A DNA stretch of 20,099 nucleotides from IMG/VR virus record IMGVR_UViG_3300013101_000133, positions 1 through 20,099 of that record. One strand, 5' to 3'. The stretch comes from a virus. The notes below the pieces were generated by a model. That model was not told the DNA's origin. It worked only from the letters and a program-made list of their open reading frames with translations, and made no database searches. The position numbers and the translations under genes were made by a program. Shown here in pieces: positions 1-9,021 of this stretch. Numbering within the stretch: position 1 is the stretch's first letter; each line of letters begins with the position of its first letter.

Positions 1-654
1 AAAGTGCTAGAACACACATATGAACAAGAGCAAGATTGGCGGGATGCGTGTATTAAAGAAAACTCACAACGTGAAAGAGCCGCTACAGGCATCAACACGC
101 TTGACGTGCTAAGACAGGCTAAGGCTTTGATGGATAATGGTTACACTGAATCAAAGCATCGTAAGGACTTAGGGAATAAAAAAGTCGGCTTAATCCAACA
201 AGCCTGGCGCTTTTTGAAACTTTCGAATAGTCATCCAGACCTTAACTTGTACGACAGGGCTTTGCTACCTGAAGAGAATAAAAATCGTATTGCTTACAAG
301 TCATTGAACAAAGAAGCATTAAGAAAGTTTCTTGTTACTGATGACAATGGTGACATGGCGACAAGTGAGCAAGTTTTAGCGTATATTAGTGAGCCGCTTA
401 AAAAGACGAATAAGCCGCTAACGGGCGCGGATTTGAAGGCTATCAGAGAGAACGCACCTTGTAAGCTTTTAAAGGTGTTATTGAATGACATCGCAACGGG
501 TAGACGTGACACTATCACAAGCCTAAATAATAATTCTACATTATTCAACGCTATAATCATGCCTGAATCTGTTCTGTCAATTCAAGAATCAATTGAAGCC
601 TTACACGTTGCAATTGACCTACTAACTCAAAAACAAAATGAGTTGAACGGTTAA
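1..654 (+). CDS. ParB-like DNA-binding protein, C-terminal part (5' end outside window)
   Basis: The reading frame is already open at base 1, so the GTG at position 4 is probably an internal Val codon and the gene starts upstream. The first visible part fits the end of a ParB/Spo0J nuclease-like domain, with an acidic helix leading into IKENSQRERA, which matches the usual 'IENLQR' motif. Next comes a helix-turn-helix-like stretch around residues 35-75, ending in QAWRFLKLS, comparable to the ParB 'RLLKLP' ending. The rest is helical with no motif I recognise. ParB-family proteins bind centromere-like sites for DNA segregation, and phages also carry ParB-like proteins as regulators or nucleases. 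A 50-codon ORF and a terminator follow, so it belongs to a transcription unit separate from the late genes. The family call rests on motif resemblance only, and the N-terminal catalytic/CTP-binding part is not visible. Confidence 0.55.
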   Translation, partial: KVLEHTYEQEQDWRDACIKENSQRERAATGINTLDVLRQAKALMDNGYTESKHRKDLGNKKVGLIQQAWRFLKLSNSHPDLNLYDRALLPEENKNRIAYKSLNKEALRKFLVTDDNGDMATSEQVLAYISEPLKKTNKPLTGADLKAIRENAPCKLLKVLLNDIATGRRDTITSLNNNSTLFNAIIMPESVLSIQESIEALHVAIDLLTQKQNELNG

Positions 655-836: not shown

Positions 837-887
837 GTTGCTTGTCAAGTAAAAAGATTTTACTTGACAAGCGGCTCTTTCTTTTTT
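837..887 (+). terminator. Strong rho-independent terminator
   Basis: CTTGTCAAGTAAAA (841-854) is followed by a 3-base loop and its exact reverse complement TTTTACTTGACAAG (858-871). The stem can extend outward to about 837/875 with G-C and G-U pairs. A T-rich run, TCTTTCTTTTTT, follows at 876-887. It would end transcription from the ParB-like/50-codon unit and isolate it from the late promoter downstream. The stem ends are the near-palindromes CTTGTCAAG and CTTGACAAG, and a related CTTGACAGG follows at 890-898, so a second role as a protein site is possible but not shown. Confidence 0.9.
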
Positions 888-909
888 CCCTTGACAGGGT
901 AGCTAATTT

Positions 910-936
910 GTGCTAGTGAAATGGGATCACTAGCAC
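910..936. repeat. 10-bp perfect inverted repeat (operator, centromere or packaging site candidate)
   Basis: GTGCTAGTGA (910-919) and TCACTAGCAC (927-936) are exact reverse complements separated by 7 bases. No T-run follows, so it is not a terminator. It stands alone between the terminator and the tandem repeat array, as expected of a dimeric protein's binding site. With a ParB-like gene upstream and a terminase operon downstream, a partition, regulatory or packaging role are all possible. Confidence 0.6.
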
Positions 937-972: not shown

Positions 973-1073
973 TAAAAAAGTAACAAGTAACAAGTCTCTA
1001 AAAAAGTAACAAGTAACAAGTCTCTAAAAAAGTAACAAGTAACAAGTAACAAGTAACAAGTAACAAGTAACAG
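973..1073. repeat. Tandem repeat array: 26-bp units merging into 7-bp GTAACAA iterons
   Basis: Two identical 26-bp units lie at 973-998 and 999-1024. Each has an A6 tract after a T, then GTAACAAGTAACAAG, then TCTC. A third unit starts at 1025 but continues into five full GTAACAA heptamers and one partial (1032-1073). About ten heptamers occur in all, all in the same orientation. There are no unique spacers, so this is not CRISPR. Arrays of short direct repeats are typical of initiator, partition-protein or small-terminase binding sites. The position, about 210 bases before the terminase start and about 320 bases after a ParB-like gene, fits a packaging site, a centromere or an origin. Confidence 0.85.
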
Positions 1074-1080
1074 GGTAGGT

Positions 1081-1106
1081 AAATACCTCTACCAAATACC
1101 TCTACC
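1081..1106. repeat. 13-bp perfect direct repeat, two copies
   Basis: AAATACCTCTACC occurs twice head to tail, at 1081-1093 and 1094-1106. It lies directly after the GTAACAA array and before the operator/promoter cluster, and it differs in sequence from both. It is a short second class of repeat in the same non-coding interval, and no binding protein can be named. Confidence 0.8.
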
Positions 1107-1154
1107 ATTCTAAAATAGGCCATGATTTCAAAATCAGATTTTCAAATTTGAGTT

Positions 1155-1174
1155 ACCATGATTCCAAATCTGGG
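1155..1174 (+). promoter_or_regulatory. Operator-like element, copy 1 (upstream of promoter)
   Basis: ACCATGATTCCAAATCTGGG lies with its end 13 bases before the -35 box. Its first 17 bases match 1241-1257 at 16 of 17 positions. Bases 1158-1174 match the reverse complement of 1261-1277 at 15 of 17. A weaker relative, ATGATTTCAAAAT, lies at 1122-1134. Repeated elements bracketing one promoter suggest a repressor or activator site. Confidence 0.6.
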
Positions 1175-1187
1175 CGAAACTCTTATC

Positions 1188-1216
1188 TTGACATTTCGGC
1201 ACACATGGGGTATAAT
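1188..1216 (+). promoter_or_regulatory. Consensus sigma70 promoter driving the late (terminase/head/tail) operon
   Basis: TTGACA at 1188-1193 and TATAAT at 1211-1216 are both perfect, with a spacer of exactly 17 bases. Transcription would start near 1223, giving a leader of about 58 bases before the ATG at 1281. No other convincing promoter or terminator was seen by eye in the downstream genes, so it could drive much of the morphogenetic block. A perfect promoter would fire constitutively, so the flanking repeated elements probably hold it in check. Confidence 0.85.
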
Positions 1217-1240: not shown

Positions 1241-1277
1241 ACCATGATTCCATATCTTGTACCAAATTTGGAATCAT
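1241..1277. promoter_or_regulatory. Operator-like elements copies 2 and 3, inverted pair in the leader of the terminase transcript
   Basis: Copy 2 (1241-1257) is direct and copy 3 (1261-1277) is inverted relative to copy 1. Together they form an inverted repeat, ATGATTCC (1244-1251) against GGAATCAT (1270-1277). The second arm contains the palindrome CCAAATTTGG (1262-1271). On DNA the pair could bind a protein dimer just downstream of the start site. In RNA the two arms could pair and hide the weak GGAA ribosome binding sequence (1270-1273) that sits seven bases before the ATG at 1281. Confidence 0.55.
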
Positions 1278-1280
1278 ACT

Positions 1281-1778
1281 ATGGAACGCGCACAAAACGA
1301 AGAAGAAAGATGCCAGTATCATACCTGTAATCATAAGAAGAATGGCTTGTCTAGCTACTGTACCCATCACGGTGGTACAAAAGACGACTTGAACAGGCAG
1401 AAAAGAGCTGCAACATCTTACAAGCTATCCTTGTTTCAAGCAAGAGTGGATCAACATGCACTAGACCCTAACATTAAAAACCTTAGAGGTGAGATAGGTA
1501 TACTACGTATGTTAATCGAGACCCGCTTGAATGAGTGTAAAGATGACTACGATCTAATGCTACAGTCTGCTGCTATTGCTACTTTAGTAACACAAGCAAA
1601 TGCATTAGTAACGAGCTGTCATCGTATCGAAACGTTAACAGGTCAACTACTAGACAAACAGAGCTTGGCTGAGTTTGCTGTACAAGTGGTAGATATCATC
1701 AGTGCCGAAGTTGACCCAGAAGAAGCAGACGCCATCGCAGAAAAGATTATTGCTGCTATGCCATCGGAGGACATCTAA
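1281..1778 (+). CDS. Putative terminase small subunit (Cys/His cluster DNA-binding protein), 165 aa
   Basis: Small terminases recognise the viral packaging site and recruit the large terminase. I assign this role mainly by position: first gene of the late operon, beside a repeat-rich non-coding site, with the large terminase two genes on. The N-terminus holds a zinc-binding-type cluster, Cys11, Cys16, Cys27 and His30 (CQYHTC and YCTHHGG), followed by a basic stretch. The remainder, about residues 60-165, is helical, as expected of an oligomerisation domain, with an acidic C-terminal tail (DPEEADAIAEK). A TTG eight codons upstream is possible, but the ATG at 1281 keeps the promoter leader and operator repeats non-coding. 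The ribosome site is weak (TTGGAA). It could instead be another Cys/His DNA-binding regulator. Confidence 0.55.
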   Translation: MERAQNEEERCQYHTCNHKKNGLSSYCTHHGGTKDDLNRQKRAATSYKLSLFQARVDQHALDPNIKNLRGEIGILRMLIETRLNECKDDYDLMLQSAAIATLVTQANALVTSCHRIETLTGQLLDKQSLAEFAVQVVDIISAEVDPEEADAIAEKIIAAMPSEDI

Positions 1779-2026
1779 TGCCAGACAGTATGGAATGCCT
1801 TGTAGGACAACTAATAGCAAGTGTAACAGATCTCAAAGACGAAATTAAAGAACTCAAAGTAGAGATGAAAGAGCTCAAAGTAGAGATGAAAAAAGACACA
1901 GAAGCCTTAGAGCTGGACGTGGACAAATTAGTAGCACTCCGTAACAAAGGAGCAGGTATCTTTTTAGCTACAGCCACCTTCTTTACCTTTGTCGGCTGGT
2001 GCGTCACACACTTCTTTACAAGATGA
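1778..2026 (+). CDS. Small coiled-coil plus single-membrane-segment protein (XhlA-like; possible holin-associated protein)
   Basis: This is an 82-residue protein. Residues 13-55 form a charged coiled coil with a near-exact heptad duplication, KELKVEM twice (1847-1867 and 1868-1888, 20 of 21 bases the same). Residues 59-79, GAGIFLATATFFTFVGWCVTH, form one strongly hydrophobic segment. This architecture resembles XhlA/hemolysin-type small phage membrane proteins and some holin or antiholin accessories. The start overlaps the previous stop (TAATG) and has a strong ribosome site, GGAGG at 1766-1770. The end overlaps the large terminase start (ATGA). Lying between the two terminase genes is unusual, and a role at the membrane in lysis or as a tether for packaging is an inference. 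Confidence 0.7.
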   Translation: MPDSMECLVGQLIASVTDLKDEIKELKVEMKELKVEMKKDTEALELDVDKLVALRNKGAGIFLATATFFTFVGWCVTHFFTR

Positions 2027-3666
2027 ACATGCAAGACTACTTACGCAACCAGATCATTAAAGGTCTGAAGCGTAAGTCTCTAAGAAAAGAATCTGTTTGG
2101 GCTGAGCGTTATAGGATTATGACTAAGACGTATCCAGGCCCTTGGACTTTTGATCACCATCCCTGGACGCGTGAAATGCACGACGACCAGTCAGAAGTAA
2201 TCATTGGTCAAAAAGCAGCACAGATGGCTTTTAGTGAGTGGGCAATAAACAAAACATTTTTCTGGTTAGACATCTTAGGTGAGGACGTTCTATATCTCCT
2301 TCCTAATAGTAAGCCAGACTCAAGTGACTTCTCAGTCGGGCGTTTTGAGCCAGCACTAGCAGCTAGTGAACATATCCAAGACATGTTCTCAGAAACAAAG
2401 AACGTAGGTATGAAGAAGGCAGGGCAAGCCATATTATACATACGTGGATCACGAAGCGAGTCTCAACTGAAGTCAATACCCACAGGTAGGATGGTGTATG
2501 ATGAGTATGATGAAATGGCTCCAGGTGTAAGAGCACTAGCACAAGAAAGAATGTCAGGGCAAACAAGTCGACAAGAGCTTCTAATAAGCACACCGACAAT
2601 CCCTGATTTTGGAATCAATGAAGAGTTCCTAGCCAGCGACCAAAAACAGTTTTTCTTCAAATGCCCACGATGTAACCAATGGGAGCAACTAACGTTTGAT
2701 CCTATGGGGAAGGATAAGGATTCCATAGTGATCGTAGGAGATAAGTTCAATGACCCACGCATTATTGAGAGTCATCTCGTATGTAAGAATACGAATAAGG
2801 TGCTGCACCACGAAGACAAAGTCAACTGGATGCAGGATTCGCAATGGGTTAAGCAGTACGATAACACGACTATTAGTGGCTATCATATTAATCAGTTGTA
2901 TAGTATGGCTGCGCATCCAGGTAAGTTTGCTGAGAGTAAGTTGCGCGCAGACACGAATCCAGCTTACGCTCAGGAGTTCGCGAAGTCGAAGTTGGGTATG
3001 CCCTATATTGAGTCTGGTTCTCGCGTTACTGACGAGGAATTAGAACAGTGTGTTCGGCCCTACCACACAGTGCATCAGTGGCAAGGCGGCTTCACAATGA
3101 TGGGAGTCGATGTTGGTACTAGATTGCACTATGAAATAGCAGAGTTCACGTTCCAAGGACATGGTATTGACGTCAATAATTTGGCTCAGAGCAAAGTGCT
3201 CAAGGCTGGATACGTAAAGGACTTTGAGGAATTAGATCAGTTGATGGCTGCATTCCATATTGTGCATTGCGTAATTGATGCCAACCCTGAACGTAGAAAA
3301 GCCACTGAGTTTGCAGAGCGCCATTTAGGCCGTGTAAGCTTATGCTATTATATTGTAGGATTAAGTAATGCTAATCCTATATCCATCCAACCAGAATTGT
3401 TAGCTGTCAAAGTAGACAGAACAAGCTGGTTAGATCTTACCCTGAGTCGCTTTAGGAATAAAACAAAAGTTACACCTTGCGACATATCAGAAGAATATAA
3501 CCCACATATGAAAGCTCTTGTACGTAGATACAATATTGCTAAGAATGGCGACATATCAGCTACGTATGTGAATGCCTCAACAGCGGATCATTTAGCTCAC
3601 GCTGCTAACTATTGCGACATTGCTTTACGTGTTGCTTGCTCAACTGGATCGGTACAAAATATATGA
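2023..3666 (+). CDS. terL: Terminase large subunit, GpA-like (packaging ATPase and nuclease)
   Basis: This motor cuts concatemeric DNA and pumps it into the prohead through the portal. With the ATG at 2023 the protein has 547 residues. The Walker A region is the divergent GQKAAQMAFS (62-71), comparable with the non-canonical P-loops of the GpA family. Walker B is MVYDEYDEM (158-166). A zinc-ribbon-like CPRC (214-217) follows, with a single later Cys (254) where many GpA proteins have a second CxxC. The C-terminal RNase H-like nuclease shows GVDVG (Asp363), VIDAN (Asp419) and ADHLAHA (Asp522). The start overlaps the upstream stop by ATGA, with no good ribosome site, so translation is probably coupled. 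A GTG at 1999 would lie inside the preceding gene. The family call is firm; the residue roles follow from alignment by eye. Confidence 0.92.
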   Translation: MNMQDYLRNQIIKGLKRKSLRKESVWAERYRIMTKTYPGPWTFDHHPWTREMHDDQSEVIIGQKAAQMAFSEWAINKTFFWLDILGEDVLYLLPNSKPDSSDFSVGRFEPALAASEHIQDMFSETKNVGMKKAGQAILYIRGSRSESQLKSIPTGRMVYDEYDEMAPGVRALAQERMSGQTSRQELLISTPTIPDFGINEEFLASDQKQFFFKCPRCNQWEQLTFDPMGKDKDSIVIVGDKFNDPRIIESHLVCKNTNKVLHHEDKVNWMQDSQWVKQYDNTTISGYHINQLYSMAAHPGKFAESKLRADTNPAYAQEFAKSKLGMPYIESGSRVTDEELEQCVRPYHTVHQWQGGFTMMGVDVGTRLHYEIAEFTFQGHGIDVNNLAQSKVLKAGYVKDFEELDQLMAAFHIVHCVIDANPERRKATEFAERHLGRVSLCYYIVGLSNANPISIQPELLAVKVDRTSWLDLTLSRFRNKTKVTPCDISEEYNPHMKALVRRYNIAKNGDISATYVNASTADHLAHAANYCDIALRVACSTGSVQNI

Positions 3667-6387: not shown

Positions 6388-7748
6388 AAAAAACTAAAAT
6401 AGCAGCTCTATTAGCAGCTGCTCAACCTGTATATGCAGACAATAATATCGATGCCTTAGTCCCAGAACTTTGGGCTATGGAGTCATTACTGCAACTGGAA
6501 AAATTGTCTGTAATGCCTTGGTTAGTGCATCGTGACTTTGAAAGTGCTGTTGCGAACTTTGGTGACACTGTAAATGCTCACCTACCTGCTGACTTCAAAT
6601 TAACCCGTAAAGGTGTTAATGATGACGTCGAAACTCAAGATGCAACTGCTGCTACTGTGCCTGTCAAACTAGACCAGCACTTAGTTGTATCATTTGTAAT
6701 TAAAGATGGTCAAGAGTCTAAAGCATTCAAAGATCTTATCTCTACTTTCTTAGAGCCTGCAATGCGCACAATCTCTGAAGGTATTGATAAAATGTTGGCT
6801 GGCCAAGTGTTCAACTTTGTCGAAAACTCTGTAGGCGCTGCTGGAACAGCTGCTGGTGCAGACAGCTTACCTGATCTTAAAGCTCTTATGACTAACAACC
6901 GCGTTCCTGGTTCTGGTCGTAACAACGTTCTTTCAGCTAACACTGAAGCTGCTTTGACTAAGCTTGACTTATTCATTGGCGCTGACAAAGTTGGTGATGA
7001 CGGTTCTGCTTTACGCGAAGGCTCTTTAGGCCGTAAGTATGGTGCATCTAATGTAACTGACATAGCTATCCCTTCATTGAAAGGTGGTACTGCTGGCTTG
7101 GCTAAAACAGTCAACTTTGGTGCTGGATATGTAGAAGGCTACACTGGTTCAATCGTATTAGACTCAGCTACAGCGCACGCAGCATATTCTGTTGTTGAGA
7201 TTGCTGGCTCTGTGTATACTGTTACTTCTGGCGGCGCTACTGCTGTTGTCCTTGATCAGCCTTTGAAAGCTGCTTTAGCTGACGGTGCTACTATTAATCA
7301 AGTTGCTGATGGTACTATTGGTGCTGCTTACGCAATCGGTTACGAAAAAGGTATCTTAATTACTGGTATTCGTGGTGCTGTAGGCGAAGCAATTCGTACT
7401 GCTACTGGCGAAATCTACTCTATTGTTGAGGCTACCGGTGTAGCAGACACTTACTTGCTTGATCGTCCATTAGCTGTAGCATTGTCTAATGCACAAAAAG
7501 TTGGTGTGTTCCCTGATGGCGACTACAACTTCTCTTTCCACTCAAATGCTTTAGCATTAGTAACACGTCCATTGGCTGCCCCTAAAACTGGTTCAGGCGC
7601 AATTAGTGCTGTTGTAAATGAAAATGGTGTAGGGGTTCGTGTTGTAATCACTTATGATGGTAAAGCTCAAGGGCATCGTGTTACTATCGATCTGTTAGCT
7701 GGTATCAAAGTGCTTAACACTAAGCTAGGTGCGGTATTGCTTAGCTAA
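6384..7748 (+). CDS. Major capsid (coat) protein, P22 coat family
   Basis: The coat protein forms the icosahedral shell. The 454 residues begin with a short N-terminal arm and then VPELWAMESLLQLEK. The segment LVVSFVIKDGQESKAFKDL and the late SFHSNALALVTRPL are hallmarks of P22-type coat proteins in marine and enteric phages. Residues 246-310 and about 320-379 look like two copies of an inserted small module, each ending in a LD[QR]PL..AL motif and then DG. Codon choice is noticeably richer in GCT, GGT, CGT and AAC than in neighbours, consistent with high expression. The ribosome site is AAGGAAA at 6369-6375. Start and stop overlap neighbours (ATGA and TAATG). The first 18 residues look like a signal peptide, but export makes no sense for a coat protein. 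Confidence 0.85.
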   Translation: MKKTKIAALLAAAQPVYADNNIDALVPELWAMESLLQLEKLSVMPWLVHRDFESAVANFGDTVNAHLPADFKLTRKGVNDDVETQDATAATVPVKLDQHLVVSFVIKDGQESKAFKDLISTFLEPAMRTISEGIDKMLAGQVFNFVENSVGAAGTAAGADSLPDLKALMTNNRVPGSGRNNVLSANTEAALTKLDLFIGADKVGDDGSALREGSLGRKYGASNVTDIAIPSLKGGTAGLAKTVNFGAGYVEGYTGSIVLDSATAHAAYSVVEIAGSVYTVTSGGATAVVLDQPLKAALADGATINQVADGTIGAAYAIGYEKGILITGIRGAVGEAIRTATGEIYSIVEATGVADTYLLDRPLAVALSNAQKVGVFPDGDYNFSFHSNALALVTRPLAAPKTGSGAISAVVNENGVGVRVVITYDGKAQGHRVTIDLLAGIKVLNTKLGAVLLS

Positions 7749-8470
7749 TGGCCTCACAGACTGATAGAGCTTTAAAGCTCTTGCTGAGGAACAAGCGACT
7801 TTTTGTTGCTTGTTACTCACCAGTCAAGAGCTTACCAAGTATCGATTTTACGACTGGTGTTCAAGCTAAAACAAATGTAATCACTTTTACAGAAGGTGCA
7901 ATTTTAAGTAAGACCGAAATACGTTCTTTTCTTAAGGAAATGATAGTCACAGGTAACAACGAGGTGTACTTAGTCCTCGAAGACCCTAAGACTGAAATAG
8001 ACTTAACTACTAGGATTGTTGTTAACGGTTTGACTTATAATACTAAGAAAGTATTTGATTCAGTATATTCAAAATTCAACTTACTAATACTAGAACGTTC
8101 TACTAGTTCTGAGATTATGCAAGATGAAGTTAAAGACCTATATGTTTCAGACAAGACCAAAGCTTATATAGACTGGTTAGTTGTCGAAGTGAAGAAAGTC
8201 TTTAATAATGATTTACCTACTGACTTAGTATTATGGCCTGTGGCTGGGTTCGACTTAGCTGCTAGTTTGAAATACATCTACCCTGTAGGATTAGTTGCGC
8301 CTACTTCTGGGTCTGTTACTTTTAAAGAAATAGGCCGTAAAGCAGGATACGTAGGTACAGGTTTGGTTGATGGAGCAGCTCCTAAGAAAGCTACCTCATA
8401 TGGTCAGACTAATTACAACGAAGTGATTCCTTTAATTGAACAGTTCAATACTTACATGGGGCGGTTATGA
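7748..8470 (+). CDS. Unassigned head/neck protein, 240 aa
   Basis: The product is 240 residues and follows the coat gene with a TAATG overlap and no visible ribosome site, so translation is likely coupled to the abundant coat message. It has no membrane segment or recognised motif. The N-terminal half is beta-rich and polar, with VYLVLEDPKTEIDLTTRIVV. The middle is helical and ends in a Gly-rich stretch, about residues 185-220. The position between coat and tail-tube genes is where neck, head-closure and head-tail joining proteins are encoded, and that is the best guess. The confidence covers the gene being real and part of the virion module, not a specific function. Confidence 0.6.
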   Translation: MASQTDRALKLLLRNKRLFVACYSPVKSLPSIDFTTGVQAKTNVITFTEGAILSKTEIRSFLKEMIVTGNNEVYLVLEDPKTEIDLTTRIVVNGLTYNTKKVFDSVYSKFNLLILERSTSSEIMQDEVKDLYVSDKTKAYIDWLVVEVKKVFNNDLPTDLVLWPVAGFDLAASLKYIYPVGLVAPTSGSVTFKEIGRKAGYVGTGLVDGAAPKKATSYGQTNYNEVIPLIEQFNTYMGRL

Positions 8471-9021
8471 CTTATGACGACATTGATAAAGACATATTCG
8501 CTTCTTTAGGTAGACATTTTCAGACTGCTTTGACCCTGCCTGTGTTTTTTGAGGGTCAGCATATGGATGGCACACCGAGTATTGACTACATTGAGGCAAG
8601 GATTGAAGGCCCTGAGATAGATGAGATTGCCAAAGGGCAATATCATATACTAGTAGAGGTTAACTTAAAGATTGTCAGACGTAAGACTGACAATCTTTTT
8701 ACTATCCGTAAGGATGTAGGTGAGTGTGCTGAAGCTTTAAGACGAGGTATACCTTACGTCCATGAGGCTGCAGACACTACTATTGCAGGCCCAGGAGTAG
8801 TATACCCTTACTGCGACTTAGCAGCAGGTGAAACGTATGTAGACGGCAGCGGTACGAATACGGTGCTAGTCATACCTACACCTGATGTGCAGCTAGGTTG
8901 TTTAGAAACTCAAAGCTTAGGTGGACGCCGCCATAAAATCGAAACACACCATTACGGCCAATTAGCAAACAAACATACACTTGTTTCTACAGTGGCTACA
9001 ACACTTTCAATATTACTATAA
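8467..9021 (+). CDS. Putative tail terminator/tail completion protein, 184 aa
   Basis: The reading frame starts by ATGA overlap with the preceding gene. It begins MTYDDIDKDIFASLGRHFQT and continues with a short strand-rich core containing YHILVEVNLKIVRRKTDN, then a helix (DVGECAEALRRGI). This alpha-beta order (N-terminal helix, strands, helix, strands) is typical of the lambda U/tail-terminator and head-tail joining fold, whose hexamer caps the tail tube. The C-terminus, HTLVSTVATTLSILL, is hydrophobic but short. The following gene encodes a tail-tube-like protein, the usual order for a terminator. Sequence resemblance is faint, so the call rests on size, fold impression and context. Confidence 0.5.
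   Translation: MTYDDIDKDIFASLGRHFQTALTLPVFFEGQHMDGTPSIDYIEARIEGPEIDEIAKGQYHILVEVNLKIVRRKTDNLFTIRKDVGECAEALRRGIPYVHEAADTTIAGPGVVYPYCDLAAGETYVDGSGTNTVLVIPTPDVQLGCLETQSLGGRRHKIETHHYGQLANKHTLVSTVATTLSILL

Follow-up and report, generated by a model that had tools for sequence, protein, structure and literature searches.

The stretch of DNA analysed here (hereafter the window) is an entire virus record of 20,099 bases. It carries a tandem repeat array within a non-coding gap of 449 bp, which extends from an ORF at 679-831 to the gene start at 1281 (Table 1). The array is followed by the genes for a 165-aa protein, an 82-aa protein, a large terminase (TerL) of the gpA type, a portal protein, and a P22-type coat protein. 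TerL matches the Pfam domains GpA_ATPase (PF05876, 1e-23) and GpA_nuclease (PF20454, 8.5e-7) as well as phrog_675 (5.6e-84). The 165-aa protein is a putative small terminase (TerS), as judged from synteny and a sequence motif and not from its fold. Synteny is kept in that a TerS-family gene directly precedes the TerL gene in 46 TerL loci, the window being counted among them. The protein has an N-terminal Cys/His motif of the zinc type (C11, C16, C27, and H30 are invariant) and a helical body; its structure model is helical (pLDDT 89.6), and there is a weak PHROG match to the TerS family phrog_10899 (E about 0.01). Structure searches with this model gave no fold match and none to a solved TerS, a missing match being no evidence; structure and sequence searches with the protein gave no informative match. 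Starts of terS were taken from ORFs. For the 82-aa ORF, which lies between terS and terL, no homologue was found among the loci.

The initial annotation had called the gene upstream of the gap ParB-like. As this gene has no significant match among the Pfam, PHROG, and NCBIfam profiles, the term derives only from remote similarity of its product to proteins of relatives, namely the upstream proteins of loci L050 (E 3e-4) and L114 (E 0.002). In relatives, upstream neighbourhoods of the L050/L114 type hold ParB-N-like proteins. The designation thus finds weak support in divergent ParB-N-like proteins encoded 1-3 kb upstream of terS in relatives and none in a profile match.

Several further elements were recognised in the gap (Table 1). 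The terminator-like hairpin probably closes the upstream genes. A near-repeat, ACAGGGTAGSTAA, occurs on both sides of the array, at 894-906 and, at the array end, at 1070-1082. These copies lie within two G-rich boxes, of which box 1 scores below 8 with the family matrix and is uncertain. The score of box 2 is by itself unremarkable in 20 kb, so that this box counts only via its place. GATT..AATC dyads were found around the predicted promoter.

Table 1. Features at the head of the terminase operon in the window
Feature	Position	Strand	Remarks
Upstream gene, possibly ParB-like	1..654	+	5' end beyond window edge
Terminator-like hairpin	837..885 (hairpin 840-872 within)	+	18 pairs, then TCTTTCTTTT; 15-bp perfect stem, -20.2 kcal/mol
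G-rich box 1, weak (GACAGGGTAGCTAAT)	892..906	+	12/13 identical to box 2
Dyad GTGCTAGTGA-n7-TCACTAGCAC	910..936	.	Hairpin
Tandem array	973..1073	+	26-bp units 973-998 and 999-1024; third from 1025, passing into heptamers to 1073
G-rich box 2 (ACAGGGTAGGTAAAT)	1070..1084	+	Matrix score 13.5; adjoins array end
13-bp direct repeat x2 (AAATACCTCTACC)	1081..1106	+	TRF, repeat finder
Two GATT..AATC dyads, upstream of promoter	1124..1171	.	Class enriched after box in the group
Late promoter TTGACA-17-TATAAT, predicted	1188..1216	+	12/12 sigma-70 consensus positions
Dyad ATGATTCC...GGAATCAT	1244..1277	.	Between promoter and terS start
Putative small terminase (TerS), 165 aa	1281..1778	+	Homologues before TerL, Cys/His motif, helical model
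82-aa ORF	1778..2026	+	Coiled coil (21-bp x3 repeat), one C-terminal hydrophobic stretch
Large terminase (TerL), gpA type	1999..3666	+	Pfam, PHROG

The initial annotation described the array as two perfect 26-bp units and a partial third, and direct reading of the sequence, TRF, and a repeat finder all agree that the first two units are identical. The third unit diverges from the 26-bp unit after 1047 and continues as heptamers. TRF reports 973-1072 with a period of 26, 3.8 copies, and a score of 154, and also calls a period of 7. A run of about ten heptamers in one orientation had also been described. The count holds, with nine exact copies of GTAACAA, all on the + strand (at 980, 987, 1006, 1013, 1032, 1039, 1046, 1053, and 1060), and the inexact GTAACAG at 1067-1073 as the tenth heptamer; they do not form a single run but are grouped 2 + 2 + 6. 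The A6 tracts recur every 26 bp, about 2.5 helical turns, as had been noted (974, 1000, and 1026). In the whole window GTAACAA occurs 22 times (4.55 expected), a count reached in 0 of 100 shuffles. GTAACAA was rejected as a family marker, only four unrelated contigs sharing one stretch of two or three heptamers. Heptamer arrays were also seen in unrelated phage contigs (L007 at 8091-8121, 6833-6872, and 8760-8827; L006 at 3178-3196), one of them with the unit AAGTAAC, resembling that of the window.

There is no DNA similarity to isolated phages. Relatives were found only among the uncultured phages of IMG/VR, with best TerL segments that are 27-48% identical. A TerL profile built from two sequences retrieved 80 loci from IMG/VR, and a profile from five TerS proteins retrieved 71 viral loci, most of them new. 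A scan of genomes for prophages with the TerS profile gave a single match, a Planctomycetota MAG contig without an array. Isolated phages with a gpA-type TerL (Vibrio phages SHOU24 and PS14A.1, Achromobacter phage 2-1, Bacillus phage Goe26, and Pseudomonas phage Lana) have neither box nor array adjoining terL and are too distant to serve as a test. Every relative that was checked is classed as a linear record, often a fragment. Contig ends cluster 200-500 bp before terS, many of them within arrays (contigs L034, L045, L046, L102, L111, L122, L124, and L128 end inside the array); their interpretation as virion ends was rejected, and we read them as assembly breaks. Because so many contigs of the group end inside this array, arrays are under-counted and their copy numbers are minimal values.

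Arrays with other units occur at the equivalent place in 47 loci of the group. Within 400 bp before terS, arrays were detected in 12 of 32 and 12 of 38 loci of the first set (two 200-bp bins), while most bins further upstream had arrays in roughly 5-10% of loci and downstream bins in near 0-1%. Of 38 independent loci on other contigs, none of which had contributed to the hypothesis, 19 carry an array in the 500 bp before terS, compared to 20 of 167 upstream and 4 of 272 downstream control windows (Fisher p about 1e-6 for the comparison with the upstream windows; control genes were called mechanically). In about half of the loci no array could be detected. The layout array, promoter, terS (973-1073, 1188-1216, and 1281 in the window) recurs in relatives, and the region directly adjoins terS in most loci, including L038, in which several kb separate terS from terL. 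A comparison of the locus in related phages had been suggested, with a lack of array conservation among close relatives as a refuting outcome; such a lack was found for the sequence of the unit and not for the position. The non-coding region thus keeps its place beside terS across very divergent phages, which makes a site linked to packaging or late control plausible.

Several relatives have a second cluster of arrays, some with palindromic units, at a distance of about 3-5 kb upstream of terS (relative to terS: L106 -3337..-3255, L092 -4595..-4496, L024 -5082..-4627, L114 -3859..-3751, and L080 -4139..-4105; also in G013 at 64.8-66.3 kb). It is possibly an origin or another control region.

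The oriented G-rich box (GGGTGGGTCAAA-like, consensus (A)G(S)nGGGTGGGTCAAA) is common to part of the group. Within 500 bp of terS it was found 58 times in forward and 4-7 times in reverse orientation, in 34 of 89 loci; about 60% of the loci are without it. Its density is 1.46 per kb near terS and 0.10-0.17 per kb elsewhere, and hence about ten times higher. As the box matrix was trained on the very region in which boxes were counted, the counts for the reverse strand and for other regions are the fair controls. A strict pattern, written by eye from the same data, gave 27 forward and 0 reverse matches. In 20 whole records (31-107 kb) this pattern has at most one site or tight cluster each, and none in 11 of the 20. 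Two boxes often flank an array or a pair of palindromes. Dyads of the GATT..AATC type reach 3.4 per kb after the box, compared to 0.61 per kb elsewhere in the group, and are 5.5 times enriched between box and terS. The distance from box to -35 element is typically 50-115 bp, with extremes of 13 and 400. In L127, L033, and L132, terS lies inside the operon, and the boxes are found at the operon head, 4-8 kb upstream of terS; in L127 this region carries a 35-bp x5 array.

The array unit differs in almost every phage, with periods from 6 to 87 bp. Many units are palindromic (such as TGTAGGATTACCCTACA and TGTCATAATGACA). Periods divisible by 7 are over-represented (30/84 vs. 22/142, p 0.001), and CAAG occurs on the + strand of 19 of 47 array units, compared to 8.2 ± 2.5 after shuffling and to 3 for CTTG. 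A general heptad code, GANNCWW, which a motif search had made to look striking, was rejected: the signal was gone once repeated heptads were counted only once and reverse strands and downstream DNA were equally optimised, and held-out tests left an excess over downstream DNA in which strand preference was only weak. Taken together, GANNCWW, CAAG, and the period-7 excess amount to a hint.

Sister phages illustrate the turnover. L155 and L156 have identical or nearly identical TerS and nearly identical upstream DNA, the array being about 100-160 bp longer in one of them. L010 and L015 (TerS 86% identical) have both boxes, a CCCCAC element, and the promoter in common, while their arrays upstream of box 1 are unrelated. 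The C-rich element common to this pair (CCCCACTTTnTGTCA) lies between the two boxes at about -240 before terS; similar CCCCA stretches were seen by inspection in other loci. L019 and L023 (TerS 90% identical) have different arrays at two equivalent places. These comparisons indicate that boxes and promoter evolve with the phage and that the array turns over much faster. Because arrays are unrelated or collapsed between sisters whose TerS proteins are 86-100% identical, the array unit cannot be a strictly co-evolved TerS site. Specific binding of the iterons by a conserved protein via GTAACAA therefore finds no support, the unit being different nearly everywhere and swapped or expanded while TerS remains 86-100% identical.

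Our preferred, though tentative, reading is that of a composite region which combines a late promoter with packaging initiation (pac- or cos-type) and of which the array is the fast-evolving part. The region at the head of the late operon would be laid out as terminator, G-box 1, array, G-box 2, GATT dyads with promoter, terS, and terL. Its position and anatomy, the conservation of box and promoter, and the rapid turnover of the array are features of the genomes themselves; that the 165-aa protein is TerS and binds the region, that cleavage takes place there, and that the array assists are what we infer. Terminase would start packaging within the region, and this pac- or cos-type site would share sequence with the late promoter, as is the case in phage SPP1. 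Recognition or cutting may be the role of the oriented boxes, which are conserved, and the array may be an accessory, replaceable repeat platform for TerS binding or bending. With arrays that change next to an almost constant TerS, the protein would have to recognise shape, spacing, or a few bases (CAAG being over-represented) and not the whole unit. The position of the array directly before terS in most loci, the oriented box with at most one box site or tight cluster per record, the gpA-type TerL, the SPP1 parallel, and CAAG argue for packaging. Against it stand the array turnover between sisters of near-identical TerS, the absence of the array in about half and of the box in about 60% of the loci, and a TerS model that matches no solved TerS. 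No contig ends at a fixed distance from the box were seen among the loci, which is no more than weak evidence.

Phage lambda has a terminase of the gpA family that recognises a specific site beside terS, and its cos is compact, with repeated TerS sites just before terS (nu1). The window resembles this arrangement (cosN-cosB beside nu1) in having a gpA-type TerL and a candidate site just before terS. However, the cosB sites are few, are conserved among relatives, and have no late promoter inside, and no cohesive-end element was recognised in the window. The best published parallel is pac of phage SPP1, which has three sets of direct repeats and overlaps late promoters and the start of terS; its repeats are only moderately conserved in phage SF6, and less so than the promoters (PMC4737164, PMC6316719). 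DNA binding by the SF6 small terminase was reported to be largely non-specific (PMC4737164). As in the window, sets of direct repeats at the start of terS overlap a late promoter in SPP1 and SF6. These phages have a few short boxes and a TerS of the HTH type, whereas the window group has long arrays of 2-18 copies whose unit differs from phage to phage, G-boxes that are conserved, and a TerS carrying a Cys/His motif at its N terminus; here, the pac role is that of a candidate. In the herpesvirus a sequence, conserved pac motifs lie beside tandem direct repeats that differ in number from strain to strain and among progeny (PMC10763189). Its arrangement pac1-(DR4)m-(DR2)n-pac2 resembles that of the window group in placing conserved motifs beside copy-variable repeats. 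This is a distant analogy of layout only, at genome termini and not beside a terminase gene, and no sequence relation is claimed.

The strongest objection to packaging initiation is the placement of the boxes at the operon head in L127, L033, and L132, an arrangement that a promoter-linked role would explain at least equally well. The region could be a control region of the late operon, in which a phage regulator binds boxes, dyads, and arrays and thereby activates the late promoter, while packaging starts elsewhere. We consider this unlikely, but to be taken seriously. The perfect consensus promoter with its flanking GATT dyads, the retention of box and array at the operon head even where other genes intervene before terS, and the palindromic nature of many units would all fit. 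However, the distance from box to -35 element varies more widely than expected for a classical activator site, the box pattern is confined to a single place in a genome instead of preceding several operons, and a promoter matching the consensus at 12 of 12 positions needs no activator. Packaging initiation and late control are not mutually exclusive.

The other explanations rank below these two. The array might be a nearly neutral minisatellite: slippage arrays would gather in the longest stretch that is not constrained by coding, perhaps via frequent breaks or stalled forks there. Units that differ almost everywhere and that expand or vanish between near-identical phages (L155/L156) would be expected in that case, and GTAACAA-type heptamers occur in unrelated phages as well. 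We nevertheless regard it as improbable, given that only 8 of 133 other non-coding gaps of at least 150 bp (in 11 long records) contain an array, that units show the CAAG strand bias and the excess of periods that are multiples of 7, and that the arrays are placed among conserved oriented boxes. Little credence is given to a replication origin whose iterons would serve a phage initiator: such repeats normally remain associated with their initiator, but the units of this group change from one sister phage to the next, a place beside terS is atypical for origins, and no GC-skew switch was seen at the region in 11 long records, a test weakened by the nearly one-stranded gene orientation. In its favour, phage origins typically have direct repeats next to AT-rich DNA. 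The SPP1 origins oriL and oriR are direct repeats bound by gp38 (PMC6316719).

A loading or centromere site for the upstream ParB-like protein, serving partition or a ParA-less clamp that regulates transcription, appears very improbable. It would be in line with the ParB-N-like proteins encoded 1-3 kb upstream in several relatives and with plasmid F, in which sopC consists of tandem direct repeats near the ParB-type gene sopB. The window, with its possibly ParB-like upstream gene, resembles F in this respect; unlike there, no ParA partner was found, and the array of the window group belongs with terS and the late operon and not with parB. A ParA-type ATPase was detected neither in the window nor in any of 20 related records (up to 107 kb; these may be fragments), while 14 of 14 control genomes were positive, and a tyrosine integrase was likewise not detected in the 20 records, again with positive controls. 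This disfavours the plasmid-type centromere that the initial annotation had considered. In addition, stronger ParB_N genes, usually two per genome, lie elsewhere, often tens of kb away, and the ParB-like gene in the vicinity of terS frequently has the opposite orientation, with at least 1 kb in between. The proteins encoded 1-3 kb upstream of terS are conserved, have 370-420 aa and a ParB-N-like GxRR/GRHR motif, and are below Pfam detection; the genes L106:1745-2956, L108:1830-2945, L080:1892-3094, L024:1719-2882, and L136:724-1989 are all on the - strand. The clear ParB_N genes of most records are usually a pair a few kb apart, without ParA.

In our literature search, the coverage of which was partial, no paper was found that describes such a region of array and box. 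Returning to packaging initiation, the region might represent a packaging signal built on a new plan, in which conserved oriented G-boxes fix the site and the adjoining repeat platform receives a different unit in nearly every phage, at a pace exceeding that of the terminase itself. Specificity would then reside in spacing or shape and not in the sequence of the repeats, or the turnover would bar cross-packaging between phages. We put this forward as a speculative and rather unlikely proposal. There is still no agreement on how small terminases find their DNA. With the site kept while repeats are swapped between sisters of near-identical TerS, these phages provide natural swap experiments in which the effects of array, box, and TerS are separable. 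For uncultured phages, the combination of box, array, and promoter is a simple marker by which the head of the late operon can be located. The array before terS may explain why many contigs of the group break there.
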